Source of the DNA: Hymenobacter artigasi | GTDB lineage: Bacteria; Bacteroidota; Bacteroidia; Cytophagales; Hymenobacteraceae | Assembly: GCF_012275535.1 (NCBI RefSeq) | Contig: NZ_JAAVTK010000017.1 | Coordinates: forward strand, 1-64,000 | Length of the DNA: 64,000 nucleotides | Direction of reading: 5' to 3' | Made by a program: the position numbers and the translations under genes | The notes under the pieces: generated by a model | What the model was told of the DNA's origin: nothing | What the model saw: only the letters and a program-made list of their open reading frames with translations | Databases searched by the model: none | Shown here: positions 41,549-59,036 of the stretch, piece by piece | Numbering within the stretch: the stretch's first letter is position 1 | Layout of the letters: each line of letters begins with the position of its first letter

Positions 41549-42598
41549 TTAGATGTGCCGGAGCACTTTATTTTTTAGCCAAAATTTCAGTTGCAGTTTA
41601 ACGGCTGGTCGATAAAACCGGCTCAGCCCTTGCGCACCGAATTGCCGATAATTGTCTACGGTGCGGTCGGGGTTGTGGTAGCAGGTCCAAAACCAGCGCT
41701 CGGCAAGCACACGGCGTAGCGCTCCAGGTTCGGCATACGCAATTTGCTTGTTTTGAGCAGCTAGGTTCAGAAGCCAGGCGTGCGCCTCGACCAAGGTTAT
41801 GTCGCCCAGGGTAAAAGGATAATGCGCAATGGTGTTGTGCACCAGCAACTCCCGTTCCGAGGCTTTAAAACCCGCTCTTTCCAGCACCCGCCCTCGGATT
41901 ACATTGGCCTTGTCAGTTCGGCGGGCATGCACGTCGGCTTTGTGTGCTGAGGGAAAGGTACGATAGCGGAGCAGAACCGTGGGCTGGTTTGCAATGGTGG
42001 TAACCGCCGAGGCCCGCGCCACCCATTCGTAGTCTTCACCGAAGGTATCAAGTATCTGTTCGTCGTAGTGGAGTTGGTGCTCCTCAATCAAAGCACGCCG
42101 AAAGAAAACCGTAGGGTTACTGACCGGCATGTTAAACAGCAGAAACCCTTTGGCTTCGTCAGCACCCACGGGATACTCGTACACGGTGCGGTTGTCCCCG
42201 AAGGTTTCCACGAAGCCGCTGGTAATTCCTACATCAGGGTGGGTTTCCAGAAAATCGAACTGAGTCTGTAGCCGATGCGGCAACGAGACATCATCGGCAT
42301 CCATCTTGGCAATGTACTGGCCACGGGCGAGGGAATGGCCGCGGTTGTCGGCGAAGGCGCGACCGCGGTTGCGGTCGTTTACCAGCAACTTCACCCGGTG
42401 GTCCTGGGTTTCGTAGCGCCGGGCCACGGCCACGCTGTCGTCGCTGGAGCAGTCGTCGATGACGAACAACTCAAAATTGTTGAACGTCTGGTTCAGTATG
42501 CTCTCGATGGCTTCGCCGAGGTAGGGTCCGGCGTTATAAACGGGTATAATTACCGATATCAAGGGCGGCGGGGCTTCGTTTGTCTCGCGCACGGTCAT
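41549..42598 (-). CDS. GT2 family glycosyltransferase
   Basis: A 349-residue GT-A enzyme. Conserved blocks are ISVIIPVYNAGPYLGEAIES, LFVIDDCSSDDS and the DxD in YIAKMDADDVSLPHR, followed by a FGEDYEWVARAS catalytic-base region. Its ATG overlaps the stop of the upstream GT2 gene (ATGA), so the two are translationally coupled. Specificity unknown. Confidence 0.92.
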   Translation of the reverse strand: MTVRETNEAPPPLISVIIPVYNAGPYLGEAIESILNQTFNNFELFVIDDCSSDDSVAVARRYETQDHRVKLLVNDRNRGRAFADNRGHSLARGQYIAKMDADDVSLPHRLQTQFDFLETHPDVGITSGFVETFGDNRTVYEYPVGADEAKGFLLFNMPVSNPTVFFRRALIEEHQLHYDEQILDTFGEDYEWVARASAVTTIANQPTVLLRYRTFPSAHKADVHARRTDKANVIRGRVLERAGFKASERELLVHNTIAHYPFTLGDITLVEAHAWLLNLAAQNKQIAYAEPGALRRVLAERWFWTCYHNPDRTVDNYRQFGAQGLSRFYRPAVKLQLKFWLKNKVLRHI

Positions 42599-43644
42599 AT
42601 AATAGAAGTAATTGGGGCAGGGTTTACCTGAAGGCGCTGCTGCAGCTCTTTTACTTGCAAAAAGATACGCTCCGCGTCCGCACGCCGGGTCAGTCCCATG
42701 CGCAAGCGGTACCCGCGGCGTAGCGTCTCAAAAGTGTCCGGATAGTTTTCGTCGTGCCCATGCAGTCGGTAAGTAAGTAGTTCACCGGGCCGCGACAGCA
42801 CCTCTTTGCCCATCCAAGCCAGCCACCGCAGGTAGCGGGTTCGAAACGTGGGCAAGTCGAGCTGCGGCTCTCGGTGAAGAAAGTAATACACCAAGCTTGT
42901 AAGGCCCGAAGAGGCCGTTCCCCGGCCTATGCGACGCAGGTATTCCCAAGTCAGCCGCTCTTTGTACATGAAGTGACGCAACCGCAAACGGGGGTCGTAC
43001 CAAAGCTGATAGCCAGCTATACGCAGGGCATCGCCCAATTCCACATCCTCCCCGCTCACGATAATCTTTCCCCGCTTGGTGGAGGTACTGAATTTGAAAC
43101 CGTTGGCACGCAGGTGCCGCCATCCGGAGCGGCGTACTACCGAGCCAGCCCCGTACAGATACCCACCCTGACCGGTGAGCGGCCCCGCCTGGGCTGCCTG
43201 GGCACCCACCGCGTATACTGCCTGAAACCGCTCAAACCAAGCCGGTGGCGGTACTTCAAAAGCCCCCTCCGCGAGAGCCCCCAAAATCCCGATTTGCGGG
43301 TGTTCGCTCATGATTTCGGCGACCAGGCCAACGTAATCCGGATACAGCCAGTTGTCGTCGTCAACGATACATATGTTTTCGTATTTCGCCTCGTCGAAAC
43401 CCCTAATCAACGCATTTTCTTTGCCCGGCTTGGGTTCTTCCAGCGTCCGCAGGGGCACGGGCTGTCCCAGCTCCGCCCAGATTTGCTCAGCGGCTGCTAG
43501 GGTGTCGTCGGTGCTGGCGTTGCTCACCAGCAGTACCTCCCATCCAAGGCCGGCAGGCACCTGCTGAGTTGCCAAATGGCGAAGTGTTTCGGACAAGCGC
43601 AAAGCGCCGTTGTAAGTGCAGATAAGCAGTGTGATGCCATTCAT
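42595..43644 (-). CDS. GT2 family glycosyltransferase
   Basis: A 349-residue GT-A enzyme: NGITLLICTYNGALRLSETL, LLVSNASTDDT, DxD-like ICIVDDDNWLYPDYV and a SGEDVELGDALRIAG block. The long C-terminal part has charged and aromatic residues, with RLTWEYLRRIGRG, typical of bacterial rhamnosyl/glucosyl transferases but not specific. Coupled to the following GT2 gene by an ATGA overlap. Confidence 0.92.
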   Translation of the reverse strand: MNGITLLICTYNGALRLSETLRHLATQQVPAGLGWEVLLVSNASTDDTLAAAEQIWAELGQPVPLRTLEEPKPGKENALIRGFDEAKYENICIVDDDNWLYPDYVGLVAEIMSEHPQIGILGALAEGAFEVPPPAWFERFQAVYAVGAQAAQAGPLTGQGGYLYGAGSVVRRSGWRHLRANGFKFSTSTKRGKIIVSGEDVELGDALRIAGYQLWYDPRLRLRHFMYKERLTWEYLRRIGRGTASSGLTSLVYYFLHREPQLDLPTFRTRYLRWLAWMGKEVLSRPGELLTYRLHGHDENYPDTFETLRRGYRLRMGLTRRADAERIFLQVKELQQRLQVNPAPITSII

Positions 43645-43673: not shown

Positions 43674-44660
43674 TTAGTAGCTTCTAGTAGGCGCTATGGC
43701 AAGCGCCGAGGTAGATAACCGCCCGGTTAACAGCCGTAGCGTGAAAGCAGGAAGCTCTTTGTTAAGTGTTTGGAGTGATATCCGGATAAAATCACGGTAA
43801 AGCGGCCAGAACTCGGCCCGGCGCCCCTGATGCCAAAGCAAGGTCAGCAATTGTACATAGTACCAGTTTACATTGTGCATAATAGCTGCTTGGTAACGCC
43901 CTCCGAAGTACCGCAGCATGGCCAATTTGGTATTGAGGTTACTTCGGTACTGGTTTTCCAGGCTCTGAGCCGACCAAACGCCTCCGCCATGCCGTCGATA
44001 GTGTGCGACACTACGCGGCAGGTATGCCGCGTGACCAAAGTCAGTAAGCATGCCGAACAAAAAATAGTCTCCGTTACCAACCACTGCAAAGGCAGGTGGC
44101 AGGTTGGTCAAGACATGATTCCGGAACAAAACACTGAGAGTGGGTGGGCAATAGCTTCCCACGATTTCCAGTTGAGACAAGTCGCGCCGGTAAGCAGAGG
44201 GCACAAAATTTTCCTTCAATATCTGCCCCTGCTCATCTACTTCTGCACAGCCGGCGAAGCATAATACTACGTCAGGGTTTTGGTCAAGTATGGCTACCTG
44301 GTCGCGCAGCTTGTGTGGGTCCGTCCAGTAGTCATCGCCCTCAAGCATCGCCACGTACTGGCCCGTGCAAGCTAGGTAAGTTCGTATAAAATTCGGCATC
44401 ATCCCCACGTTTTGTTCGGCCGTGATGATACGAATCCGGCCGGGGAAACGTTTTTGATACTGCTGAATGACTGCCCGTGTATTATCAGGGGAGCAGTCCT
44501 CGCCAATCACTAGTTCTACCGCAAAATCTGTTTCCTGGGCCATTACACTCTCAATAGCCTGCCCAATATACTGCTCATGGCGGTAAGTAATCATGCACAC
44601 ACTCACCTTAGGGGCAGCTTGTGTAGCCGGTGTAGAAGTGCTATGAGGCGAAGTAGTCAT
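43674..44660 (-). CDS. GT2 family glycosyltransferase (third member of the duplicated GT2 set)
   Basis: A 328-residue GT-A enzyme. VSVCMITYRHEQYIGQAIES, VELVIGEDCSPDNTRAVI and LEGDDYWTDPHKLRDQV are the nucleotide-binding and DxD regions. It is closely related to the truncated GT2 part at 45911-46300 and to the broken copy at 44850-45228, and is the only intact member. Start chosen at the ATG at 44660 (MTTSPHSTS), since the open frame to 44840 encodes an unlikely basic extension. Confidence 0.9.
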   Translation of the reverse strand: MTTSPHSTSTPATQAAPKVSVCMITYRHEQYIGQAIESVMAQETDFAVELVIGEDCSPDNTRAVIQQYQKRFPGRIRIITAEQNVGMMPNFIRTYLACTGQYVAMLEGDDYWTDPHKLRDQVAILDQNPDVVLCFAGCAEVDEQGQILKENFVPSAYRRDLSQLEIVGSYCPPTLSVLFRNHVLTNLPPAFAVVGNGDYFLFGMLTDFGHAAYLPRSVAHYRRHGGGVWSAQSLENQYRSNLNTKLAMLRYFGGRYQAAIMHNVNWYYVQLLTLLWHQGRRAEFWPLYRDFIRISLQTLNKELPAFTLRLLTGRLSTSALAIAPTRSY

Positions 44661-44849
44661 GTTTAGATGAGGTCGGAAGTAAAAAAAACGCTGCTTCAAT
44701 ATGAGCAAGTTCCGGCTACAGTCGCGTAGATTTCGGCCCAGCACTTCTACTACCAGCATAAAAGGCCCTGTGTCACGGGCAAAAAGGCATACGCGCCCAC
44801 GGTATTGTCTCCGGCCAACGTAATCAAGCACTAATGACAACCGGCGACC

Positions 44850-45228
44850 TCACAGATGAGGCCTAGCAGAGGCTTTTGACATCATGAAAGCAGAATGCAC
44901 AAGCGGGGTTGGCTTATAGCACGTCCACCTGCCGCTGGAGCTTGGTGGAGTCGGGCCAGTAGCCGTAGTCGTCGCAAGTGTAGCTGTGAGATTGACCATC
45001 GTACTCAGGATGGCAGCGGGGTAAGCACCCGCACCCAGCCAAATGCCACGTCTGATAGGCCAGAACCAAGGCACTGGTGCCATCGGAAGAGCATTTCTCG
45101 ACTATTACCATTTCACCTAAGCCTTCCAAATTTCGGGACCGCACTAATTCAAATACTTGGGCCAAGTACGCCGCGTGGTTATAGGTGATACAGCACATGC
45201 TCACATTCATTTGCCGGAGGCCGCTCAT
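44850..45228 (-). pseudogene. Broken GT2 glycosyltransferase gene
   Basis: The frame starting at the ATG at 45228 (ATGA overlap with the acetyltransferase stop) encodes SMCCITYNHAAYLAQVFELV and VIVEKCSSDGTSALVLAYQ, clearly the GT2 start. The next part is continued in other frames (RVLTP, then AILSTMVNLTATLA), after which the first frame resumes with DDYGYWPDSTKLQRQVDVL, a stop, and NPACAFCFHDVKSL. Several indels and stops therefore destroy it. The intact ATGA coupling suggests the loss is recent. Confidence 0.85.
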
Positions 45229-45878
45229 GCCGGGTTGGCAGATGGAGAGACCAGCATTTTGATGACTTTGGCCGGGATGCCTACGGCCACGGCGTTTGCC
45301 GGCACGTCCTTATTGACCACACTGCCGGCCCCAATCACACTGTTGTCGCCGATGCGGATGCCGGGCAGTACCACAGCCCCGGTACCCAGCACCACGTTGG
45401 CCCCGAGTACGACGTTGCCCGACACGTGAACACCGGGCGAGAGTTCGCAGAAGTCGCCCAGCACCGCGTCATGCCCAATGGTACAATTCAGATTCACCAG
45501 CACCCCTTCGCCCAAGCGGATGTCGTTAGTTAGCACAGCTCCACTCATCAAATTCAGACCCTCGCCCAGCACGTTGCCGAAGCCGCCCACGAGGGCGTTG
45601 GGCGACACCGACGAGGTCAGCGTACCGCCCAAGGCTCGCATCTTAGCCACAAGCATGCGCCGCAATGCCGGGCTGCCCACACCTAACGCAAAATGCGGAT
45701 TTTGCCCAAACTGCTCGGCGGCGGCTGCGGCGGCCGTCAGCACCGGAAATCGGTCATAAAGCAGCGGCGGCGCATCGGCTGACACATCGTCATAGAAAGC
45801 CAGACCCGTCAGTTCCTTACGTTGGCTGAATACCTCCAGCACTTCTTTGGCAAATCCTTTAGCCCCAATGATAAGCAT
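45225..45878 (-). CDS. NeuD/VioB-type sugar O- or N-acetyltransferase
   Basis: A 217-residue enzyme. The N-terminal Rossmann-like part (MLIIGAKGFAKEVLEVF) is followed by a left-handed beta-helix of hexapeptide repeats (ANVVLGTGAVVLPGIRIGDN, VIGAGSVV), the NeuD layout. It acetylates a nucleotide-linked amino sugar from acetyl-CoA. ATG at 45878. It is paralogous to the gene at 46326-46961 and sits in the second, damaged copy of the aminotransferase-NeuD-GT2 module. Confidence 0.88.
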   Translation of the reverse strand: MLIIGAKGFAKEVLEVFSQRKELTGLAFYDDVSADAPPLLYDRFPVLTAAAAAAEQFGQNPHFALGVGSPALRRMLVAKMRALGGTLTSSVSPNALVGGFGNVLGEGLNLMSGAVLTNDIRLGEGVLVNLNCTIGHDAVLGDFCELSPGVHVSGNVVLGANVVLGTGAVVLPGIRIGDNSVIGAGSVVNKDVPANAVAVGIPAKVIKMLVSPSANPA

Positions 45879-45910
45879 AATAGGTAGCAGTTGATTAAAA
45901 AGTGAAAACA

Positions 45911-46300
45911 TTAAGCTGCCAACGCTTGGCGCAGCAGCCTGGCAATGCGCCTGACCTGCTCGGACTCCAACTCTTGATAAAATGGCAGGCATAATGCCTG
46001 CCGTGATGCACTCTCAGAAATGGGATAAGGCGCACCGGTGCGACTGGCCATGGTTGCCATCAGGCTAGGCATAATACCTAAGTTATGCGCCGGGGTAAGC
46101 ACCCGTATCCGCTCTGGATACTTATGCTCGTACTCCTGCGCAATGCGCCGAGTACTATCCGTTGAGCAGTCCTCCCCTATCACCATTTCTACGGCAAAAT
46201 CGGTTTGCTGCACTAGCACCGATTCGATTGCCTGTGCCAGATATGCCTCGTGGTTGTACGTGATGCAGCAAACACTGACGGTGGGTGAAGGAGAAGACAT
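45911..46300 (-). CDS. In-frame chimera: GT2 N-terminus fused to an aminotransferase C-terminus
   Basis: A 129-residue ORF. Residues 1 to about 89 are a GT2 start (TVSVCCITYNHEAYLAQAIE, VEMVIGEDCSTDSTRRIAQ, RVLTPAHNLGIMPSLMATMA), ending before the DxD motif. From about residue 90 it switches to APYPISESASRQALCLPFYQ and ELESEQVRRIARLL, which aligns with the last 37 residues of the DegT/DnrJ enzyme at 46989-48068 (APCPVSEDASRRALCLPFYQ). The reading frame is kept through the join. It is unlikely to work as either enzyme and is best read as a deletion scar between two tandem modules. Confidence 0.85.
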   Translation of the reverse strand: MSSPSPTVSVCCITYNHEAYLAQAIESVLVQQTDFAVEMVIGEDCSTDSTRRIAQEYEHKYPERIRVLTPAHNLGIMPSLMATMASRTGAPYPISESASRQALCLPFYQELESEQVRRIARLLRQALAA

Positions 46301-46325
46301 CGGATAGTATAAACGAAAAAGCTGA

Positions 46326-46961
46326 TTATTTACGGCTGGTTTGTAGTGGGCGAGCAGGAACGCCGACAACGGTAGTGCCGGCTGGCACGTTTCGCGTCAC
46401 TACCGCCCCGGCACCAATTATCGCATTGACGCCGATGACTACATCGGGCAGCACCACGGCCATTGCTCCTACCTGGCAACTGCTGCCCAGACGGCAGCGG
46501 CCCAGTAGACGGGCCCCCGGCGATACTTCGCAATAGGCTCCCACTTCCACGTCGTGATGCACCGCAGCTCCGGCGTTGAGTAGCACCCCCTCCCCAAGTC
46601 GGGCACTCGGTGCCACCAGCACATAGTGCATTATATTAGCTCCCACACCCACTCCTGCTACGTGTGGGCCTACCACAGCGGTGGCGGCCATTGTGGTAGT
46701 GAGCACTCCTCCCCAGCCCTGGAACTGCACCGCGAGTCGCTGCCGCAGGGCTGGCCCGCCCAGCCCCAGCACGAAGCGATGGTCGGTGCGCGCCAGGTAA
46801 TCTTGTGCCTCGGCAACACTGCGTAGTAGCGGATAACGGTCTAAAATATGGCTCGGCTGATTTGGGGTAAGGTCATCAAAGAACACCACCTGCTCGCGCT
46901 CTGCAGCTGTTAGGCACTGCAACACTTCCACAGCATGCCCTTTGGCACCAATAATCAGCAT
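46326..46961 (-). CDS. NeuD/VioB-type acetyltransferase
   Basis: A 211-residue enzyme: N-terminal MLIIGAKGHAVEVLQCL Rossmann-like part, then hexapeptide repeats (VVGPHVAGVGVGANIM, ARLGEGVLLNAGAAV, VIGVNAIIGAGAVVTRNVP). It lies 27 bp after the VioA-like aminotransferase, and together these would make an N-acetylated 4-amino sugar nucleotide. Paralogue of the gene at 45225-45878. Confidence 0.9.
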   Translation of the reverse strand: MLIIGAKGHAVEVLQCLTAAEREQVVFFDDLTPNQPSHILDRYPLLRSVAEAQDYLARTDHRFVLGLGGPALRQRLAVQFQGWGGVLTTTMAATAVVGPHVAGVGVGANIMHYVLVAPSARLGEGVLLNAGAAVHHDVEVGAYCEVSPGARLLGRCRLGSSCQVGAMAVVLPDVVIGVNAIIGAGAVVTRNVPAGTTVVGVPARPLQTSRK

Positions 46962-46988
46962 ACGCTCGACTTATGAAAAAGGTACTGG

Positions 46989-48068
46989 TTAGTAGTGGTA
47001 GTTGCGCACCAACTGGCTAACCCAGCGTACTTGGTCGGCGGTGAGCTCTTGGTAAAAAGGCAGGCACAGCGCGCGGCGTGAAGCATCTTCCGATACCGGG
47101 CAGGGGGCCCCCTGATGATAGGGCAGTTGGTTGAGGGAAGGAAAGAAATAACGCCGCGTGTTCACGGTTTGCGCAGCCAAGGCTTCCTTCACTCGCAACA
47201 GACGGCTCTCCGAGTCGAACAGCACCGGGAAGTAGGCGTAATTATACTCCAGACTTTCTTCCGTTGGCTCCGGAAACTGGAGCGGGAGACCAGCTAATTC
47301 CTGACGGTAGATGGCTGCCAATGCCCGGCGCTGCTCAATGAACCCTGGCACCCGCGGAAGATTGCAGAGGCCCATGGCGGCATGAAACTCCGAATTCTTC
47401 CCGTTTACTCCTATTGTAAAGTACTCATCCCCAATGTGCCCAAATGATTTATAAAGCCATATTTTTCGAGCCAACTCCTTGTCATTCATCACAATCGCGC
47501 CGCCCTCGACCGTATGAAACAACTTAGTAGCATGGAAGCTACAGGTTGACAAATCACCGTAGCTCAACAGTGAACGGCCGTGCACGCGCACACCAAATGC
47601 GTGGGCCCCATCATAAATAACCTTCAGGTTATGACGGTGGGCAATGTCTTCAATCGCAAGCACATCGCACGGGTAGCCGTACACATGCGTAGCTAGGATG
47701 GCACTGGTGCGGGGCGTAATGGCCGCCTCAATTTTGGTGGCATCCAAGCAGAAAGTCCGGTCTTCAATATCGACGAATACCGGTGTGCAATTCTCCCAGA
47801 GAATGGCAGTGGTGGTCGCAACATACGAAAAGGGTGTCGTGATAATCTCCCCGTTCAGGTCCAAGGCCTTAATGGCCACCTGTAGGGCAATGGTGCCATT
47901 GCTGGTGAACTGCACCTGTGTATCGTCGAGGTACCGACTTAGGTCGGCTTCAAGGCGCTGCACCAATGGGCCGTTATTGGTGAGCCAGGAACGCTCCCAG
48001 ATTCCTTCTAAGTAAGCTGTGTATTCAGCAATGGGCGGCAGATATGCCTTGGTAACGTTGATTGTCAT
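46989..48068 (-). CDS. DegT/DnrJ/EryC1 sugar aminotransferase, VioA-like
   Basis: A 359-residue PLP enzyme. The PLP lysine is in FHATKLFHTVEGGAIV, a form typical of the VioA-type 4-aminotransferases acting on dTDP-4-keto-6-deoxyglucose. Other family blocks: LSRYLDDTQVQFTSNGTIAL and IYDGAHAFGVRV. With the following NeuD/VioB protein it would make a 4-acetamido-4,6-dideoxy sugar (viosamine type). This substrate is inferred from motif and context. Confidence 0.92.
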   Translation of the reverse strand: MTINVTKAYLPPIAEYTAYLEGIWERSWLTNNGPLVQRLEADLSRYLDDTQVQFTSNGTIALQVAIKALDLNGEIITTPFSYVATTTAILWENCTPVFVDIEDRTFCLDATKIEAAITPRTSAILATHVYGYPCDVLAIEDIAHRHNLKVIYDGAHAFGVRVHGRSLLSYGDLSTCSFHATKLFHTVEGGAIVMNDKELARKIWLYKSFGHIGDEYFTIGVNGKNSEFHAAMGLCNLPRVPGFIEQRRALAAIYRQELAGLPLQFPEPTEESLEYNYAYFPVLFDSESRLLRVKEALAAQTVNTRRYFFPSLNQLPYHQGAPCPVSEDASRRALCLPFYQELTADQVRWVSQLVRNYHY

Positions 48069-48094: not shown

Positions 48095-49870
48095 CTAATG
48101 CACCAGTTCGGCATATTGGCGCTCGGCCACAATACGCCCATCCCGCAACTCGTAGATACGGTCGCATTCGCGGAGGGTGGTGAGGCGGTGGGCAATGATG
48201 AGAATGGTTATGTCGGTGTGCGTCAGGCGCGTAATAGCCTCGTTTACTTCCCGCTCCGTTTCGTTGTCTAAGGCACTGGTAGCTTCGTCCAGCAGCAGGA
48301 TTTCCGCCTGCTTATATAGTGCCCGCGCAATGCCAATGCGTTGCCGCTGGCCACCCGAAAGCTTGGAACCCCGCTCGCCGATAAAGGTATGCAGCCCCTC
48401 GGGCAGTTTGGCTACAAACTCGCTTAGGGAGGCTTGCTCTACCGCATATCGCAGGCGGTCGACGTGCACTTCCGCAGCCGGGGCACCCAGCGTGATGTTG
48501 TCTTGAATGGTGGCCTCCATCAGGAAAGTGTCCTGCTTAACATAGCCTACCAGCTCATACCAAGCTGCTAAGTGCTGATTCGTAAGTGGCTGACCATCAA
48601 CCAGCACCTGGCCGAGCTGCTCGCGGTAAAAGCGCAGCAAAACGTTCATAAGCGTAGTTTTGCCGGAACCTGACGCTCCGATAAACCCAATTTTCTCACC
48701 GCGCTGGATTTGCAGGGTAATATCCTGTAGAGCCGGTGCGTCGCCGGTCGGCTGGCTTGGGAACCGATAGGTAACCTGCTTTAAGGCGAGCTCACGGCCA
48801 AAGTGAAGCGGCAGCTGCTCGACAGGCGGCATTTCATTGAATTCCGATTCGCGGAATAGCTCTAGGTTCTCAATCGTGTATTGGTTTTGCTTTATCTGAA
48901 CCATTGCCATGAGCATGCGATTGACAGAAGGCATAAGGCGATAAGCGGCGGCCGCAAACATGCCTACCAGCGCGATGAGTCCCCCGCTGCCAGCGGGGCC
49001 AAAGAGGGAGTATAGGATAATAGTAAACACCCCCAAAATAGCTACCATCTCAATCACGCGAACCGGTAGCAGCGAGTATAGGTAAGACTCGGCATCGAGG
49101 TCCTGCACGGTGGATTGGTTGTTGAGCAGGCGCTCAGCAAAAAGGGATTGACGGTTGGCCAGCTTTAGCTCGACAAAGCCCGAGAATAGGTCGCCAATAA
49201 TGTTAAAAGAAGCCGGCCGCAGCTCATTCAGCCGATTGCCGATGGCCTGAGAACGTGTTCTTAATGCCCGGTAAGTGAGCAAGGTAGCGGGAGCCAGTAC
49301 AACTATCAGCACGGCTATAAGCACCGGCTTATATACGAGAATTGCTACAGCAATAACAATGATGACCGTGAGTTCCGAAAAGAACACAAACAAGGGGCGC
49401 AACACCATATTGACGTAGGTGCTGGGCACTTGCAATGTACTGTTGATGAGCTTTGCTGAGCCTAAATCAGCAAAATTCCAGAAAGGCAAATGCAGATACT
49501 TCCGCAGTTGGCTTCGAACGATGCTCAGACCTACATCAGCTGTAAAACGGGCTTGGAGATAGTTAATCCAAGTGCTGAAGACATTTTTTAATAGAAAGAA
49601 CACCAAAAGTGCAGCAATCAGGGCGACCAGAAAGGTGCGTTCCGATGTAAATCCCAGACCATGATAAATGGGATTGAAGAAACGGCTGTGTTGAACACCG
49701 CCCGGCTCGGCCGCCACGAGCAATACCGGAACCAGAGTTGCCAGTCCGAACACATCGAGCACCGAGGAAAGCAACAGTAAACTAAACTGAACTACAGCCT
49801 GCCGCTTCTGCTTTGAATTCAGATAATAGGAAACGCTCCGTAGCGAATAAGAAATAATACCTGATACCAT
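48095..49870 (-). CDS. ABC transporter, fused membrane-ATPase, MsbA/PglK-like flippase
   Basis: A 591-residue half-transporter. Six transmembrane helices (residues about 20-310) precede an ATPase with Walker A GASGSGKTTLMNVLL, signature LSGGQRQRIGIARALY, Walker B ILLLDEATSALDN and H-loop IAHRL. In a polysaccharide locus such a protein would flip a lipid-linked glycan (PglK-like), and no Wzx-type flippase gene is seen. Exact -7 box TAACTTTG upstream. Lies between the broken-gene region and the aminotransferase module. Confidence 0.93.
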   Translation of the reverse strand: MVSGIISYSLRSVSYYLNSKQKRQAVVQFSLLLLSSVLDVFGLATLVPVLLVAAEPGGVQHSRFFNPIYHGLGFTSERTFLVALIAALLVFFLLKNVFSTWINYLQARFTADVGLSIVRSQLRKYLHLPFWNFADLGSAKLINSTLQVPSTYVNMVLRPLFVFFSELTVIIVIAVAILVYKPVLIAVLIVVLAPATLLTYRALRTRSQAIGNRLNELRPASFNIIGDLFSGFVELKLANRQSLFAERLLNNQSTVQDLDAESYLYSLLPVRVIEMVAILGVFTIILYSLFGPAGSGGLIALVGMFAAAAYRLMPSVNRMLMAMVQIKQNQYTIENLELFRESEFNEMPPVEQLPLHFGRELALKQVTYRFPSQPTGDAPALQDITLQIQRGEKIGFIGASGSGKTTLMNVLLRFYREQLGQVLVDGQPLTNQHLAAWYELVGYVKQDTFLMEATIQDNITLGAPAAEVHVDRLRYAVEQASLSEFVAKLPEGLHTFIGERGSKLSGGQRQRIGIARALYKQAEILLLDEATSALDNETEREVNEAITRLTHTDITILIIAHRLTTLRECDRIYELRDGRIVAERQYAELVH

Positions 49871-50746: not shown

Positions 50747-51877
50747 CTATTTATAGAAGCTCAACACGCCATCAATCACGCGCTGCTGCAAGTTTTCATC
50801 AAGCTCGTGATAGAGGGGCAGGCGCACGAGGCAATCGGTGTAATGGTCGGCCCAGGGCAGCTCGCGGCCGTCGTGCTTATCGGCGTAGAAAGGGCTTTTG
50901 TGCAGCGAGAGGTAATGAAATACCGGCGAGATTTGCAGCTGGCGCATGTGCGTGATGAGGGCACTGCGCTCGGCCAGGTCGCGGCACACGAGGTAAAACA
51001 TGTGGCCGTTGTTGGTAGCATAATCGGGCACGATAGGCAGGCCCACGGCCTGCGCCACCAAGGGCTGCAGCGCGGCATAGTAACGCTCCCAGATGTCCTT
51101 GCGGCGCTGCTGGATAATGGCCATGTTCTCAATCTGGGCCCAGAGGAAGGCGGCGATAATGTCAGACGGCAGGAAGCTGGAACCCACTTCGACCCAGCCG
51201 TACTTATCAACTTCGCCCCGGAAAAACGATGAGCGGTTGGTGCCCTTCTCCCGGATTATTTCGGCGCGGCTGGCATACTGCTTGTCGTTGATGGCCAGCA
51301 TTCCACCCTCGCCCGAGGTGATGTTCTTGGTTTCGTGGAAGGAGAAAGCCCCCAGCGCACCAATAGTGCCCAGCGGCCGGCCTTTGTAGAAGCTGTCGAT
51401 GGCCTGGGCGGCATCTTCCACCACGGTCAGGTTGTGGCGGGCGGCCACGGCCATAATGGCATCCATGTCGCAGGCAATGCCGGCGTAGTGCACCGGCACA
51501 ATGGCACGGGTGCGCGGCGTAACCAAACTTTCGAGCGTGGCCACATCCATGTTGGGATTCTCGGCGGTGCTGTCGGCAAATACGATTTTGGCCCCGCGCA
51601 GCACAAAGGCATTGGGGGTACTCACAAACGTATAGGAGGGCATAATTACCTCATCGCCGGGCTGCAGGTCGAGCAGCAGCGCCGCCAGTTCCAAGGCATC
51701 GGTGCAGGAAGTCGTAAGCAGCACCTTTTGAAACCCCAGCTGCTGCTCAAAGAACGTATGGCAGCGCTTGGTGAAGATGCCATCGCCGGAAATCTTGCCG
51801 GAGCGAACGGCTTCTTCGATGTACCGGGCTTCATTCCCGGAAAGATAGGGCTTGTTAAAAGGGATGGCGTACTGCAT
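50747..51877 (-). CDS. wecE: dTDP-4-amino-4,6-dideoxygalactose transaminase
   Basis: A 376-residue PLP enzyme of the WecE/RffA type, making dTDP-Fuc4N from dTDP-4-keto-6-deoxyglucose and glutamate. It begins IPFNKPYLSGNEARYIEEAV and has TTSCTDALELAALLL, VVEDAAQAIDSFYKGRPLG and the PLP site FSFHETKNITSGEGGMLA, all distinctive of WecE. The substrate dTDP-sugar must come from RmlA/RmlB outside the window. Exact -7 box upstream. The NeuD-type gene that precedes it may supply the acetyl step. Confidence 0.95.
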   Translation of the reverse strand: MQYAIPFNKPYLSGNEARYIEEAVRSGKISGDGIFTKRCHTFFEQQLGFQKVLLTTSCTDALELAALLLDLQPGDEVIMPSYTFVSTPNAFVLRGAKIVFADSTAENPNMDVATLESLVTPRTRAIVPVHYAGIACDMDAIMAVAARHNLTVVEDAAQAIDSFYKGRPLGTIGALGAFSFHETKNITSGEGGMLAINDKQYASRAEIIREKGTNRSSFFRGEVDKYGWVEVGSSFLPSDIIAAFLWAQIENMAIIQQRRKDIWERYYAALQPLVAQAVGLPIVPDYATNNGHMFYLVCRDLAERSALITHMRQLQISPVFHYLSLHKSPFYADKHDGRELPWADHYTDCLVRLPLYHELDENLQQRVIDGVLSFYK

Positions 51878-51899
51878 TAGCTAAGCTTGTAATTTGGGG

Positions 51900-51907
51900 C
51901 AAAGTTA
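51900..51907 (-). promoter_or_regulatory. Bacteroidota -7 box for wecE
   Basis: TAACTTTG on the minus strand matches TAnnTTTG exactly, 23 nt before the wecE ATG. Confidence 0.6.
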
Positions 51908-51988
51908 CGTCCGGTGCTTTTAAACCATCAGAAAAGGCAGACTCACCCAAGTGTTGACTTGGCGCTTGTTTTTCCGATAAAAGGCAGA

Positions 51989-52663
51989 CTATTTGCCGAT
52001 GGGAAGCGTTTTTCTGGCCGGAGTACCTACATAGGTTCCAGGTGTAGTGAGGTGATGCACAACGGTTGCTCCCCCACCCGTCCGAATATCCTCTCCCAAT
52101 TCCAGGCCATCAATGACAGTGGTACCTATACCCAGAAAGCAACGGGGCTTCACCGTGACGTGCCCGGCCAAACGCACCGCTGGGGCCAGAAAAGAATGCC
52201 CAACAATCGTGGTATCATGCGCCACGACGCAGCCCGGATACAAAAAGGTGTTCGGGCCGAGGTGCACGTTCAAATCCAGAATGCAACCCGGCGACACGAA
52301 GCAGCCGGGAGCTACCATCGCGCTACTATCCCGGTAGGCGGCCGGATGAACAAAGGTGGCAAAGGGCACCCGCGCCACCAATTGCTCAAACAACTGCTGC
52401 CTAACGGCGAGGTGATTGTAGCCGATGCCCATGAGCAGGGCATCGAAAGTGCCCGCCGCGAATGCCGCTTCAATCGTTTCGACCCGGCCCAGTACCGTGC
52501 CGTGAGGAGTGACGGTAGCGTGAGCCGCGAAATCATCGAAGAAACCGGTCACGGCCCAGCCGGCAGTTTGGTGCAAGTGCTGCGCCACCTGCTGCCCCAG
52601 GGCTCCGGCCCCGATGATGGCAACCCGAACGTCGGCGCTGGACGTGAGGCCTGGCTTATTCAT
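51989..52663 (-). CDS. NeuD-type sugar acetyltransferase
   Basis: A 224-residue enzyme: N-terminal VRVAIIGAGALGQQVAQHL Rossmann-like part and C-terminal hexapeptide repeats (NVHLGPNTFLYPGCVV, FLAPAVRLAGHVTV, VIDGLELGEDIRTGG). ATG chosen at 52663, which starts 2 bp after the upstream GT2 stop; a start at 52681 would overlap it. Neighbouring wecE suggests the substrate could be dTDP-Fuc4N, although the GNAT at 56708 is another candidate. Confidence 0.88.
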   Translation of the reverse strand: MNKPGLTSSADVRVAIIGAGALGQQVAQHLHQTAGWAVTGFFDDFAAHATVTPHGTVLGRVETIEAAFAAGTFDALLMGIGYNHLAVRQQLFEQLVARVPFATFVHPAAYRDSSAMVAPGCFVSPGCILDLNVHLGPNTFLYPGCVVAHDTTIVGHSFLAPAVRLAGHVTVKPRCFLGIGTTVIDGLELGEDIRTGGGATVVHHLTTPGTYVGTPARKTLPIGK

Positions 52664-53597
52664 TGCTCGTTTCGGCCTCAACGAAGATGGGACGACGGGT
52701 GGTTTTCAGGTTGATACGATGGATATACTCCCCCAGAATACCCAGGCCCAACAGGATGATGCCCACTCCGAAGCCCAACAGAATGGCCAGCGTAGGAAAG
52801 CCGGCGCTCAAGTCGTTAAAAAGCAGCTTTCGAACCAGTACGTAGAGGGCGTAGCACGTTGTGAGGAAGAATATTCCCACTGCAGTTGCCGAAAATATGC
52901 GAACCGGCAGGTCGGAGAACGTAACGAAAATGTTGATGGAATGCTCGATTAATTTGCGCACCGTGTATGAGCTTTGGCCGGCGGCTCGTTCGCTGTGCGT
53001 TACAAACACACTGGTAACATTGCTCGTTATCCAGGTAAGATACCCATCCAGAAACGTGTAGGAATTGCGCATTTGCAGGCAGTGCCGGGCAATGCTGGTC
53101 CGAATCAGCCGAAAGGCCGTGTAGTCGGCGTGCAGGTCGGGAATGCTGGCGCTTAACAGCTTTTTGAGCAACGTGGAAGTAACGTTGCGAAAGCCGGAGT
53201 GCTGTAGCATTTCGTACTTGCCGTATACCACGTCAAAATTGCCGGCAGCCTGGGCCGCAATCAGCCGGCCGATATCGGCCGGGCTGTGCTGTAAGTCTTC
53301 GTCCATGGTAACGATGAACTGACCACGAACGTGCGCAAAGCCACAAATCAGGGCATTGTGCTGGCCGAAGTTTCGGGCCAGGCGCACGATTTTCACCAGG
53401 TCGGCCCCCAGTTCCTGCTGCAAAGCCTGCATCACCTGCCACGACTGGTCCGGGCCGCAATCATTCACAAAAATAAGCTCATAGCTCAGCCCCGCACTCC
53501 GGAAGAATGTGTCAATCTGCTGAGCCAATGGGCGTATGGTATCCTGCCCTCGGTAAGTAGGCACTACCACTGAGTATTGCGGCACACCAACTATCAC
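52656..53597 (-). CDS. ArnC-like GT2 glycosyltransferase with C-terminal membrane helices
   Basis: A 313-residue DPM1/ArnC-type enzyme that would load a sugar onto undecaprenyl phosphate. The catalytic part has YSVVVPTYRGQDTIRPLAQQ, IFVNDCGPDQS and FIVTMDEDLQHSP (DxD-like). Two C-terminal helices (about residues 230-252 and 266-290) match the family. The start is GTG at 53597, overlapping the WbqC stop as GTGA. The three downstream genes follow on the same strand. Confidence 0.92.
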   Translation of the reverse strand: MIVGVPQYSVVVPTYRGQDTIRPLAQQIDTFFRSAGLSYELIFVNDCGPDQSWQVMQALQQELGADLVKIVRLARNFGQHNALICGFAHVRGQFIVTMDEDLQHSPADIGRLIAAQAAGNFDVVYGKYEMLQHSGFRNVTSTLLKKLLSASIPDLHADYTAFRLIRTSIARHCLQMRNSYTFLDGYLTWITSNVTSVFVTHSERAAGQSSYTVRKLIEHSINIFVTFSDLPVRIFSATAVGIFFLTTCYALYVLVRKLLFNDLSAGFPTLAILLGFGVGIILLGLGILGEYIHRINLKTTRRPIFVEAETSNE

Positions 53598-54313
53598 AAC
53601 ACAGGCACCGCAGCCTGTGGCGCAAAGGTTTTCATATACTGTGGGGCATTAGGGCCGGTATTAAACAACAAATCCAACACTGTCACTCCATGCTCGAAAG
53701 GAGCCGCTCCTAATTGGCGATATTCCGGATAGCCACTGTAATCCATCCAGCTAACATCTATGCCAGCATGGTCAAACAAGGACGTATCTAAATAGTCCTG
53801 GGCAGCAGGCCCTGAAAGGTAACTGGTCCCCCCGGCATCGCGCACCAACTGTACCAGCCGTTCCGTTTTGCCTTCGATAAGCTCATAATCCGTCGACCAG
53901 CTCAGCTTTGTTGTAATACCAAGCCAGCCACAGATAGCACGAATAAGGGTAACGTTAATCTGACTCAGATTAGTGAAATCAGGCGTATTATAAATGGCTT
54001 CCAACTCGGCTTTGTATTGCGAGAAGTAAGGCGCTTTCGCATAAGTCTGAGCCAATGTACGCCAGTGTTTAACTGCCCATTTAGGGTCAAACACTTCGGT
54101 CTCGTTAATTTTTTGGTGCAAATGCTCCTGTCTTACCGCAACAGTCAACCAAGCACTCCCTTGCGGAGTCTTAATTTTATTTCGATTACGCCAGTCATTC
54201 TTCGTGTACTGCATTTCGTCGTAGAAAATAAATTCATCGACTGCATTTATCATATCAAAGTAGCCTTTCCAGGGAATATAATTCGACTGAAGAATGGCAA
54301 CTTTTTTGGGCAT
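53594..54313 (-). CDS. WbqC family protein
   Basis: A 239-residue WbqC/YsfE-type protein found in O-antigen and capsule loci, perhaps with an acyl- or amino-sugar-modifying role; its reaction is unproven. It starts KKVAILQSNYIPWKGYFDMI and contains FYDEMQYTKNDWRNRNKIK, the family core. ATG at 54313; the frame extends further, but MPKKVAILQ is the natural start. A -7 box lies 43 nt upstream. The gene is noticeably more AT-rich than neighbours. Confidence 0.92.
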   Translation of the reverse strand: MPKKVAILQSNYIPWKGYFDMINAVDEFIFYDEMQYTKNDWRNRNKIKTPQGSAWLTVAVRQEHLHQKINETEVFDPKWAVKHWRTLAQTYAKAPYFSQYKAELEAIYNTPDFTNLSQINVTLIRAICGWLGITTKLSWSTDYELIEGKTERLVQLVRDAGGTSYLSGPAAQDYLDTSLFDHAGIDVSWMDYSGYPEYRQLGAAPFEHGVTVLDLLFNTGPNAPQYMKTFAPQAAVPVL

Positions 54314-54355
54314 GGTCATCTCGAGCAAAGCAGAAACAGGTTGGTATAACGCTGG

Positions 54356-54363
54356 CAAAGTTA
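54356..54363 (-). promoter_or_regulatory. Bacteroidota -7 box for the WbqC gene
   Basis: TAACTTTG on the minus strand matches TAnnTTTG exactly, 43 nt before the ATG at 54313. It supports this ATG over the upstream in-frame codons, which it would overlap. Confidence 0.58.
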
Positions 54364-54505
54364 GGTAAGAATGTAATGCTGAAGCCTGCAGCATAGCTAT
54401 GAATAGTTCGCATTAGTCAATCACCAAGGCTTGAACGCCAGGTAATCAGCAGCACTATACACTTAACAAATAACTAATAGTCAAAAATATATGCATGTTA
54501 TCAAC

Positions 54506-55435
54506 TCAGGAATAAACCTCCCGTACCACATATAGCGGCCGCTTGCGAGATGCGTCCAGCCCACGCCACACGTACTCGCCAATTACCCCCAGCGCAATCA
54601 TCTGAAAAGCTGATACGAAGAGCATAACGACCATGAGCGTGGTCCAGCCGGCGGGCTCGTCGGGACTGGCAATTTTGAGGGCAATCACATAGAGGCCGTA
54701 AACGAGGGCAATTAATCCCAACCCCAGGCCCAGTACGGAAATGGCCCGAATGGGCACGAAAGAGAATGCCAGCAGCGAATCGACCAGCAGCTTGATTTTT
54801 TTGGAAAGCGTCCAGCGCGACTTGCCGATTTCCCGCTTGCGGCGGGTGTAGGGGATGTTGACGTAGGCAAAGCCCAGCCATACCATGAGGTAGAACACGT
54901 TGGAGTTGCGCTCGTGCAGCTTTAGCACCTCGGTGGCTACCTGCCGGTCGAAAAATACGAAGTCGAAGCCACCGTCGGGAATGTTGCTCAGGGCCAGGTT
55001 CTTCATCAGCCAATGAAACAGCTTGGCCATGGCCACGGACAGGCCGGTATCTTCCCGGCCCTGGCGGTTGCCGATGACCAGCTTAATGCCCTGTTGCCAG
55101 TAGCCGTACATCTCCACCATCAGCTCGGGGGGGTCCTGCAGGTCGGCGGTGATGACGGACAGGCAGTCGCCGGTGGCATAGGCCATGCCGGCCACGATGG
55201 CGTTGTAGGAGCCCACATTGCCGGCCAAATCCACGATGCGAATGCGGCCGGGGTACAGGTCCTGCGCCCGCCGCAGGGCCCCCAGGGTGTCGTCGCCGGA
55301 GCCATCGTTCACGAATATGTACTCGAACGTGACTTCGGGCGCGAAATTTGCTTCGTTCGCCACCAGCTCGCGGGTTGTCACCGGAATATTATCCTCGTTG
55401 AAGTAGCAGGGAACGATGACAGAGAGCTTAGGCAT
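54506..55435 (-). CDS. ArnC-like GT2 glycosyltransferase with C-terminal membrane helices
   Basis: A 309-residue DPM1/ArnC-type enzyme: KLSVIVPCYFNEDNIPVTTR, YIFVNDGSGDDTL, SVITADLQDPPELM and RRKREIGKSRWTLSKKIKLL, the last typical of undecaprenyl-phosphate sugar transferases. Two C-terminal helices (about 220-245 and 260-285). Together with the GT2 at 52656 it suggests two distinct lipid-linked sugars feeding the GT39-like enzymes. Confidence 0.93.
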   Translation of the reverse strand: MPKLSVIVPCYFNEDNIPVTTRELVANEANFAPEVTFEYIFVNDGSGDDTLGALRRAQDLYPGRIRIVDLAGNVGSYNAIVAGMAYATGDCLSVITADLQDPPELMVEMYGYWQQGIKLVIGNRQGREDTGLSVAMAKLFHWLMKNLALSNIPDGGFDFVFFDRQVATEVLKLHERNSNVFYLMVWLGFAYVNIPYTRRKREIGKSRWTLSKKIKLLVDSLLAFSFVPIRAISVLGLGLGLIALVYGLYVIALKIASPDEPAGWTTLMVVMLFVSAFQMIALGVIGEYVWRGLDASRKRPLYVVREVYS

Positions 55436-58079: not shown

Positions 58080-59036
58080 CTATTTAACGTGTTCTTTGAA
58101 ATACTCCAGCGTGCGGCGCAGGCCCTCGGCGCGGTCGACCTTGGGCTCCCAGCCCAGGATTTCGCGGGCTTTGGTGATGTCGGGCTTACGCTTCATGGGG
58201 TCGTTTTCGGGTAGGGCCTGGAAGGTCGGCTTGAACTCGACGCCGGTGAGGCGGGCAATTTCTTCGCCGAACTCCTTGATAGTGATTTCATCGGGGTTGC
58301 CGATGTTTACGGGCAGGTGGTAGTCGCTGAGCAGCAGGCGGTAAATACCTTCCACCAAGTCGTCCACGTAGCAGAACGAGCGGGTCTGCATACCGTCGCC
58401 AAACACGGTCAGATTCTCGCCGCGCAGGGCCTGTGAGAGGAAAGCGGGCAATACGCGGCCGTCATTGAGACGCATGCGTGGGCCGTAGGTGTTAAAAATG
58501 CGGATGATGCGCGTTTCCAAGCCGTGGTGGTTGTGGTAGGCCATGGTAATGGCCTCCTGGAAGCGCTTGGCTTCGTCGTAGCAGCCACGGGGTCCTACGG
58601 GGTTCACGTTGCCAAAATACTCCTCCACCTGGGGGTGAACTTCGGGGTCGCCGTACACTTCCGAGGTGCTGGCAATCAGCATGCGGGCACCTTTCACTCG
58701 CGCCAGGCCCAGTAGGTTGTGCGTGCCGAGTGAGCCCACTTTCAGGGTCTGAATCGGAATCTTGAGGTAGTCAATCGGCGAGGCCGGCGAGGCAAAGTGC
58801 AGGATATAATCCAGTTTGCCGGGCACGAACACGAACTTGCTCACATCGGCCTGATGAAACTCAAAATCGGGCCGGCCAAAAAGGTGCTCGATGTTTTGGA
58901 GCGAACCCGTAATCAGGTTGTCCATCGCCACTACCTGATAGCCCTCTTTCAGGAACCGGTCGCAGAGGTGCGAGCCCAGGAAACCGGCACCGCCGGTGAT
59001 AAGGACACGCTTTTTTTCTTCGGAAGTATTGGTCAT
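58080..59036 (-). CDS. uxs: UDP-glucuronate decarboxylase (UDP-xylose synthase)
   Basis: A 318-residue extended SDR. NAD site [30 protein letters not shown], catalytic [12 protein letters not shown] (YxxxK) and [14 protein letters not shown], the last being characteristic of UDP-xylose synthases. It converts UDP-GlcA, from the ugd product next door, to UDP-xylose. Alternative: a dehydratase of the same family, less likely because of these motifs. Confidence 0.93.

Follow-up and report, generated by a model that had tools for sequence, protein, structure and literature searches.

Do the recurring aminotransferase, NeuD-type acyltransferase, and GT2 glycosyltransferase genes of a surface-polysaccharide locus record the copying of one gene set in place, or the repeated swapping of gene cassettes between species? 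The question is raised by a predicted surface-polysaccharide operon of Hymenobacter artigasi, which lies in the 64,000-nucleotide stretch of DNA analyzed here (the window; contig NZ_JAAVTK010000017.1 of assembly GCF_012275535.1, positions 1 to 64,000). An earlier note on this DNA had read the region from 43.6 to 48.1 kb as two or three tandem copies of a three-gene module under decay; to us the array looks more like the outcome of repeated swapping between species. The enzymes themselves are ordinary, and the exchange record is unusually readable. It offers a gene-level view of how a bacterium may change its surface amino-sugar cap, in which one aminotransferase is kept and the capping enzymes (acetyl, formyl, or other) and transferases are exchanged, and its joints would show legibly how the swaps take place. 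Our searches of an open-access library for Hymenobacter polysaccharide loci gave no published description of this slot.

Gene Content of the Slot

All genes lie on the minus strand and are listed in the order in which they are read, together with the neighbor on either side.

48095..49870, minus strand: ABC transporter (MsbA/PglK-like; domain and NCBIfam profile matches), the upstream neighbor of the slot
46989..48068, minus strand: AT1, intact DegT-family sugar aminotransferase (Pfam DegT/DnrJ/EryC1, E 2e-90)
46326..46961, minus strand: ND1, intact NeuD/PglD/VioB-type sugar N-acyltransferase (NCBIfam TIGR03570, 172.7 bits)
45911..46300, minus strand: chimera of a GT2 N-terminus and an aminotransferase C-terminus, in frame (ORF and protein alignments)
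45225..45878, minus strand: ND2, intact NeuD/PglD/VioB-type N-acyltransferase of another subfamily than ND1 (TIGR03570, 182.4 bits), inside an ORF that extends to 45992
~44827..45216, minus strand: decayed GT2, N-terminal ~145 aa, with two in-frame stops, a gap, and an unreadable middle
44676..44824, minus strand: hexapeptide-acyltransferase C-terminus, decayed, its ~50 aa spread over two frames (local protein alignment)
43674..44660, minus strand: GT3, intact GT2 (Pfam Glycos_transf_2, E 3e-24)
42595..43644, minus strand: GT2 closing the slot on its downstream side (domain match, synteny)

Four genes of the slot are thus intact, AT1, ND1, ND2, and GT3, and all four are predicted to be active. 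ORFs, domain matches, and alignments bear out the gene order and positions of the earlier note, and ORFs and alignments uphold its view that more than one module of the aminotransferase-NeuD-GT2 kind is present, with one aminotransferase body missing. Its claim that two of the three GT2 copies are disabled also stands, one being truncated in the chimera and the other carrying stops and a gap. The decayed acyltransferase tail just before GT3 was missing from its gene list.

AT1 is predicted to be a dTDP-4-dehydro-6-deoxyhexose 4-aminotransferase. Its top NCBIfam profile is DesI, at 247 bits where 650 are required, and it falls far below the cut-off of every NCBIfam family listed, being classified only as a member of the DegT family; by inference it would act like a DesI/VioA-type 4-aminotransferase. 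Its top PDB match is 2po3 (E 7e-58), and a dTDP-glucose 4,6-dehydratase is encoded in the same genome.

ND1 and ND2 both pass the curated cut-off of TIGR03570 (NeuD/PglB/VioB; 160.8 bits), and each has a PglD_N domain and hexapeptide repeats. A histidine of ND2, whose top PDB match is VioB (7txp), aligns with the VioB histidine, and one of ND1 aligns with that of a pilin glycosylation protein; we take this to be the catalytic position of NeuD-type acyltransferases. Both enzymes are predicted to acetylate the 4-amino sugar nucleotide.

The Broken Genes

The chimera is a stop-free ORF (45911–46369) with a likely start at 46300, from which it encodes 129 aa. About 90 aa are GT2, 54% identical to the intact GT3, and about 40 aa are of the AT1 family (E 2e-14 against the AT1 C-terminus, with 65% identity across 37 aa). 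The Pfam GT2 match of the chimera stops at profile position 72 of 168, and that of GT3 covers positions 1–152. The junction lies around 46034–46050, the exact base not being placeable, and a glycine codon at the joint is attributable to either parent.

The decayed GT2 matches other cassette GT2s (up to E 6e-26) across its two stop codons and gap. When the G015 homolog was the query (genomes other than that of H. artigasi are denoted by G and a number), the longer piece of the acyltransferase tail gave a local score of 77, the top place in the window; none of 100 shuffles reached this score (highest 69), and the second-frame piece alone scored 28. The homolog from G081 scored 52 at the same spot, below both NeuD genes (109 and 82). 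In G015 the same gene type, a hexapeptide acyltransferase that is not a NeuD, precedes the relative of GT3.

Lineages of the Genes

AT1 is sister to its nearest relative, in G027 (85–86% identity), in an aminotransferase tree that splits deeply into two clades. ND1 and ND2, which share 41% identity, have different relatives: ND1 is nearest to G019 (73%) and G027 (72–73%) and groups with these and G004 (support 98/96), and ND2 is nearest to G020 (66%) and groups with it (89/98). GT3 (65% identical to G015, 55% to G013) groups with these two other Hymenobacter loci (95/94). The GT2 of the chimera falls with G004, G019, and others, and lies in one clade with the decayed GT2 (95/95). The downstream GT2 at 42595 is sister to G019 and G027 in a quick tree (SH-aLRT 100) and is 53% identical to G015 versus 61–63% to G027, G019, and G117.

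The broken GT2s and the aminotransferase tail make short alignment rows (12–28% of columns filled), with long branches for the decayed GT2 and the tail, and in its tree the tail, ~40 aa long, took no settled place. With that limit, placing the decayed GT2 with G020, the partner lineage of ND2, gave p 0.093, with the best tree elsewhere; a sister relation of the two broken GT2s gave p 0.144, and one of the aminotransferase tail with AT1 gave p 0.114.

Because rpoB places G019, which has the closest relative of ND1, among the near species, a foreign source for ND1 is not required.

The Same Slot Across Hymenobacter

We compared the slot with 39 other Hymenobacter loci, one genome per species. 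The gene after the aminotransferase is a NeuD in 20 of them, WbqC in 11, a GT2 in five, an unnamed protein of ~550 aa followed by a NeuD in two, and a formyltransferase in one; the alternative cassettes in this place carry NeuD, WbqC, formyltransferase, and GNAT or hexapeptide types. Two caps occur together in G117 (NeuD and formyltransferase) and in G019 (formyltransferase and NeuD, the latter past the conserved GT2). In 20 of 38 other loci the ABC transporter directly precedes the aminotransferase gene, and in 16 of the 38 the downstream GT2 is the next anchor past the slot. A tree of the ABC transporters gave the window's copy no settled place.

The closest relatives of AT1 (G027), ND2 (G020), and GT3 (G015) are in genomes remote by rpoB (84–85% at the DNA level). 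An AT1-type gene was found in only three (G071, G019, and G028) of the nine genomes at 93–94% rpoB, with a different gene set behind it in each. Searches near the aminotransferase (E up to 1e-6) found a second AT1-type gene or fragment in none of the 39 loci; G013 and G108 each have one split AT1-type gene, and a different aminotransferase, of only 31–32% identity, lies upstream in G081, G069, and G111. Among seven slot gaps of more than 200 bp in other loci, G053 holds one clear remnant, a broken GT2, and G071 gave one weak match. A general scan for orphan fragments gave four matches (G019, G118, G062, and G114); it did not return the window's own fragments, so little can be read from its misses.

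Origin of the Array

We consider it probable, at roughly two chances in three, that recombination cutting through genes piled pieces of some three cassettes into an exchange slot. The slot would be bounded by the ABC transporter and AT1 on one side and by the conserved GT2 on the other. AT1 would make a 4-amino-4,6-dideoxyhexose nucleotide, and the slot would provide the enzyme that caps its amino group (a NeuD acetyltransferase here, and formyltransferase, GNAT, hexapeptide, or WbqC types in other species) together with the GT2 that moves the sugar. The first module, AT1-ND1-GT2, is of the G019/G027/G004 lineage, and what follows it would be left over from two or more further cassettes, presumably acquired horizontally: aminotransferase tail-ND2-GT2, with ND2 of the G020 type, and acyltransferase tail-GT3, of the G015 type. 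Recombination through genes would leave at each joint a GT2 N-terminus beside the C-terminus of a gene from the next cassette. Because the downstream GT2 is not G015-like though GT3 is, a donor outside the sample or one more exchange would have to account for the right border. Other observations also count against stacking: the decayed GT2 is not clearly of the partner lineage of ND2, the acyltransferase tail is seen best with the G015 query and more weakly with that from G081, ND1 has its closest relative in a near species, the broken GT2s and the aminotransferase pieces may be sister pairs, the ABC transporter has no settled place, and AT1 falls far below the family cut-offs.

An overlapping variant is possible but tentative. 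It has the chimera made by a later deletion of ~1.5 kb that took the GT2 C-terminus and the aminotransferase body, and the order that it implies, with two complete cassettes from different sources stacked before the deletion, is equally tentative. Both joints are deletion-like in geometry and either parent could have supplied the glycine codon, but the sequence fits an insertion with one illegitimate end just as well.

More speculative, and rather doubtful, is a scheme drawn by analogy with T6SS immunity arrays, by which the slot grows by sequential displacement and the array would list, in order of time, the N-acyl caps that this lineage has worn. An incoming cassette would pair with the conserved aminotransferase/transporter end and join illegitimately through its own GT2, and whatever it left of older cassettes would be shifted outward from that anchor; NeuD1 would then be newest, followed by NeuD2 and the hexapeptide cap. 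Capping enzymes would be expected to outlive their own aminotransferase, because AT1 could feed all of them. The joints have the expected form, and decay has gone further at the far one; the downstream GT2, however, belongs to another lineage than GT3.

It is unlikely that very old paralogous modules lay side by side in an ancestor and that different copies were lost in each species. The presence of both ND1-type and ND2-type genes across the genus and the deep split of the aminotransferase clades would suit such a history; however, the searches near the aminotransferase (E up to 1e-6) found no second AT1-type gene or fragment in any of the 39 other loci, and near species carry different gene sets, which would require many parallel losses.

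Slightly less probable again is the earlier proposal itself, in-place tandem duplication of one aminotransferase-NeuD-GT2 module followed by decay and one deletion. Gene order is identical in both modules, but trees constrained to unite ND1 with ND2 (AU p 9.6e-10), GT3 with the chimera GT2 (p 4.6e-6), or GT3 with the decayed GT2 (p 6.7e-4) were rejected, and a tail that is not from a NeuD precedes GT3. The NeuD copies and the intact GT2 cluster with different outside families, and the proposal fails for these genes; a recent duplication of either is refuted by the constrained trees. Part of the array could nevertheless stem from local duplication, because a sister relation was rejected neither for the broken GT2 pair (p 0.144) nor for the aminotransferase tail with AT1 (p 0.114); each pair may consist of duplicates. 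Comparison of the region from 43.6 to 48.1 kb with itself found only four direct repeats with both copies inside it, each two-copy and 20–22 nt long, in a search that may overlook copies less than about 65% alike; a local alignment of the broken GT2s added a 55-nt stretch of 75% identity. With only these matches, the DNA of the region bears no trace of recent duplication.

It is very improbable that the chimera works as a new protein and is not simply debris: although its frame of 129 aa is free of stops, it lacks the C-terminal portion of the GT2 domain and almost the whole aminotransferase, and no comparable fusion occurs in the 39 other loci.

Comparison with Known Systems

The slot has partial parallels among known systems. 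The viosamine island of Pseudomonas syringae, vioA-vioB-vioT, encodes a dTDP-viosamine aminotransferase, the VioB acyltransferase, and a glycosyltransferase (PMC3927599), and there as in Hymenobacter these three activities make up one decoration module. The island has one acyl chemistry, extra acyl-supply genes, and a VioT of 1173 aa, whereas the Hymenobacter slot has a short GT2 and, genus-wide, several alternative capping enzymes.

Arrays of orphan immunity genes in the Vibrio cholerae T6SS have been explained by sequential displacement (PMC5361080). In both systems new modules would enter at a fixed place and partly replace the residents, leaving older remains in a row, and different alleles of one genome do not cluster. 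The kept immunity genes may protect, whereas the Hymenobacter remains are capping enzymes and broken transferases.

The meningococcal galE2, a remnant gene in the capsule locus (PMC5349592), is likewise a truncated gene copy in a horizontally acquired surface-sugar locus; in contrast, the Hymenobacter slot holds three distinguishable cassette lineages within 3.3 kb.

Organization of the Slot

The window belongs to a 5.5 Mb genome of the genus Hymenobacter. The genes of the slot and its flanks, all on the minus strand, are listed below in the order in which they are transcribed.

49870-48095, minus, ABC transporter
48068-46989, minus, AT1, intact sugar aminotransferase
46961-46326, minus, ND1, intact NeuD-type N-acyltransferase
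46369-45911 (ORF), minus, chimera of a GT2 N-terminus and an aminotransferase C-terminus (AT tail)
45992-45225 (ORF; likely start 45878), minus, ND2, second intact NeuD-type N-acyltransferase
about 45216-44827, minus, decayed GT2
44824-44676, minus, acyltransferase tail
44660-43674, minus, GT3, intact GT2
43644-42595, minus, conserved GT2, with further glycosyltransferases after it

The gene list of the earlier note is confirmed except for the acyltransferase tail, which it overlooked.

Relationships among the Repeated Genes

The same note had interpreted the slot as tandem copies of one aminotransferase-NeuD-GT2 module. ND1 and ND2 share 41% identity, while ND1 matches homologues in two other Hymenobacter genomes (G019 and G027) at 72-73% and ND2 one in G020 at 66%. 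They lie apart in a NeuD tree of 32 rows, and their forced union is rejected (p 9.6e-10). In the GT2 tree, GT3 groups with G015 and G013, and the GT2 part of the chimera with G004, G097, G019, G076, G025, and G029; constraining the two together is rejected (p 4.6e-6). The decayed GT2, a short, long-branched row, falls inside the clade of the chimera's GT2 when added (95/95); for this row a sister position to GT3 is rejected (p 6.7e-4), and neither a sister position to the chimera's GT2 (p 0.144) nor placement within G020's GT2 group (p 0.093) is. The two broken GT2s have 55 nt in common at 75% identity. Union of AT1 and the AT tail is not rejected (p 0.114), the tail being too short to decide. 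Thus the NeuD copies and GT3 cluster with different outside families, the very outcome that the note had said would count against it, and its duplication may still hold only for the broken GT2 pair and the aminotransferase pieces. Duplication of one module is mostly rejected, and a mosaic of cassettes of sugar-modifying genes is supported. None of the enzymes is unusual in itself; what makes the slot interesting is its readable record and the alternative caps (groups put on the sugar's amino group) behind one aminotransferase.

The Chimera and the Decayed Remnants

Both halves of the chimera come from families present in this slot: about 90 residues of GT2, 54% identical to GT3, continue without frame change into a stretch of about 40 residues that matches the AT1 C-terminus at 65% identity over 37 aa. 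A base-exact position for the joint cannot be set without parent sequences. Of the decayed GT2, the first 145 residues or so survive, but they contain two in-frame stops and their middle cannot be read. Directly after it lies a hexapeptide acyltransferase end spread over two frames. When the last 62 residues of the acyltransferase located before the GT3-related GT2 in G015 serve as query, this spot scores best in the window (77; the intact NeuD genes follow with 67 and 61); 100 shuffles of that query gave at most 69 (mean 45). The second-frame piece alone scores only 28, and against the tail, a G081 homologue as query scores only 52 here versus 109 and 82 at the two NeuD genes. The match is convincing because of its position, directly before GT3 as in G015.

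At both joints a GT2 N-terminus abuts the C-terminus of another gene. Complete cassettes may have been stacked and afterwards cut by deletion, or every arriving cassette may have been attached by non-homologous joining at one of its ends. A study of T6SS immunity arrays that used the same anti-duplication test proposes the latter mechanism for them (PMC5361080). The far joint is the more decayed, as would be expected if newer cassettes lay closer to AT1; the lineage to which the downstream GT2 belongs is no help for cassette order.

Predicted Functions

Among NCBIfam models, AT1 scores best with DesI, dTDP-4-dehydro-6-deoxyglucose aminotransferase; it passed none of the curated NCBIfam cut-offs. 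Its best solved relative is 2po3 (entry name '4-dehydrase'), which we take to be DesI. The genome also encodes a dTDP-glucose 4,6-dehydratase. ND1 and ND2 are NeuD/VioB acyltransferases by NCBIfam cut-off, and of the module-type GT2s in this slot only GT3 is intact. With the substrates we infer, AT1 could feed both NeuDs, so that loss of a second aminotransferase might be cost-free. A known parallel of this aminotransferase-acyltransferase-transferase module is vioA-vioB-vioT, where the modified amino group is what the transferase recognises (PMC3927599).

A second amino-sugar set lies in the same cluster (50747-54394). Its aminotransferase is of WecE type and passes that model's cut-off with 566 bits, while its NeuD-like protein, at 151 bits, falls short of the 160.8 required; a GT2 and a WbqC protein complete the set.

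The Slot across Hymenobacter

Of 120 Hymenobacter genomes, 53, this one among them, have an AT1-type aminotransferase (51% identity or more within the matched part). We sampled loci from 40 of the 52 others; the aminotransferase lies inside the piece in 39, where the next gene is NeuD (20), WbqC (11), GT2 (5), formyltransferase (1), or an unnamed protein of about 550 aa followed by NeuD (2). Among members tested, Pfam confirmed WbqC, hexapeptide, formyltransferase, and GNAT types. Across 38 of the 40 loci, the ABC transporter gene immediately precedes the aminotransferase in 20, and in 16 the next anchor reached is the conserved GT2; therefore, not all AT1-type genes occupy this same slot, G071 being an example with different surroundings. 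The window's slot (3.3 kb by ORF ends) exceeds 15 of the 16 slots anchored by the conserved GT2. No second AT1-type piece was found in any of these 39 loci; three (G081, G069, G111) have an upstream aminotransferase that is 31-32% identical, and G013 and G108 have one aminotransferase gene in two parts. Such splits (locus pieces L226 in G013 and L243 in G108, and also G060) reflect assembly error or real decay.

Two different caps are encoded together, in or near one slot, in G117 (L210; NeuD and formyltransferase) and in G019 (L207; formyltransferase, plus NeuD beyond the conserved GT2), so the sugar might bear either. Broken cassette GT2s also occur in G053 (L235), G014 (L230), and G114 (L242), through recurrent transferase loss or errors in drafts. 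Proteins of 530-730 aa directly precede ND2-type NeuD genes in L220, L221, L222, L223, and L243; the one tested, from L220, had no Pfam match.

Probable Exchange between Species

In rpoB DNA, this genome shares 93-94% identity with nine others (G071, G072, G019, G073, G038, G064, G033, G028, G103). Of these nine, only G071, G019, and G028 carry an AT1-type gene, with a different gene set behind each. More remote genomes hold the closest relatives of AT1 (G027, 84% rpoB identity), GT3 (G015, 84%), and ND2 (G020, 85%); that of ND1 is in the near species G019, and the downstream GT2 (42595) is sister to those of G019 and G027. These distances and placements suggest a common lineage for AT1, ND1, the GT2 half of the chimera, and the downstream GT2, and an outside origin for what lies between the last two. 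The picture is not fully tidy: GT3 arriving with its own neighbour predicts a G015-like downstream GT2, but the one observed is not G015-like.

Elsewhere in the cluster, single genes at 54506-55435, 50747-51877, and 58080-59036 are 97%, 97%, and 92% identical to genes of G071, G045, and G102, respectively; since these identities are far above those of the slot genes, recent exchange is likely for all three.
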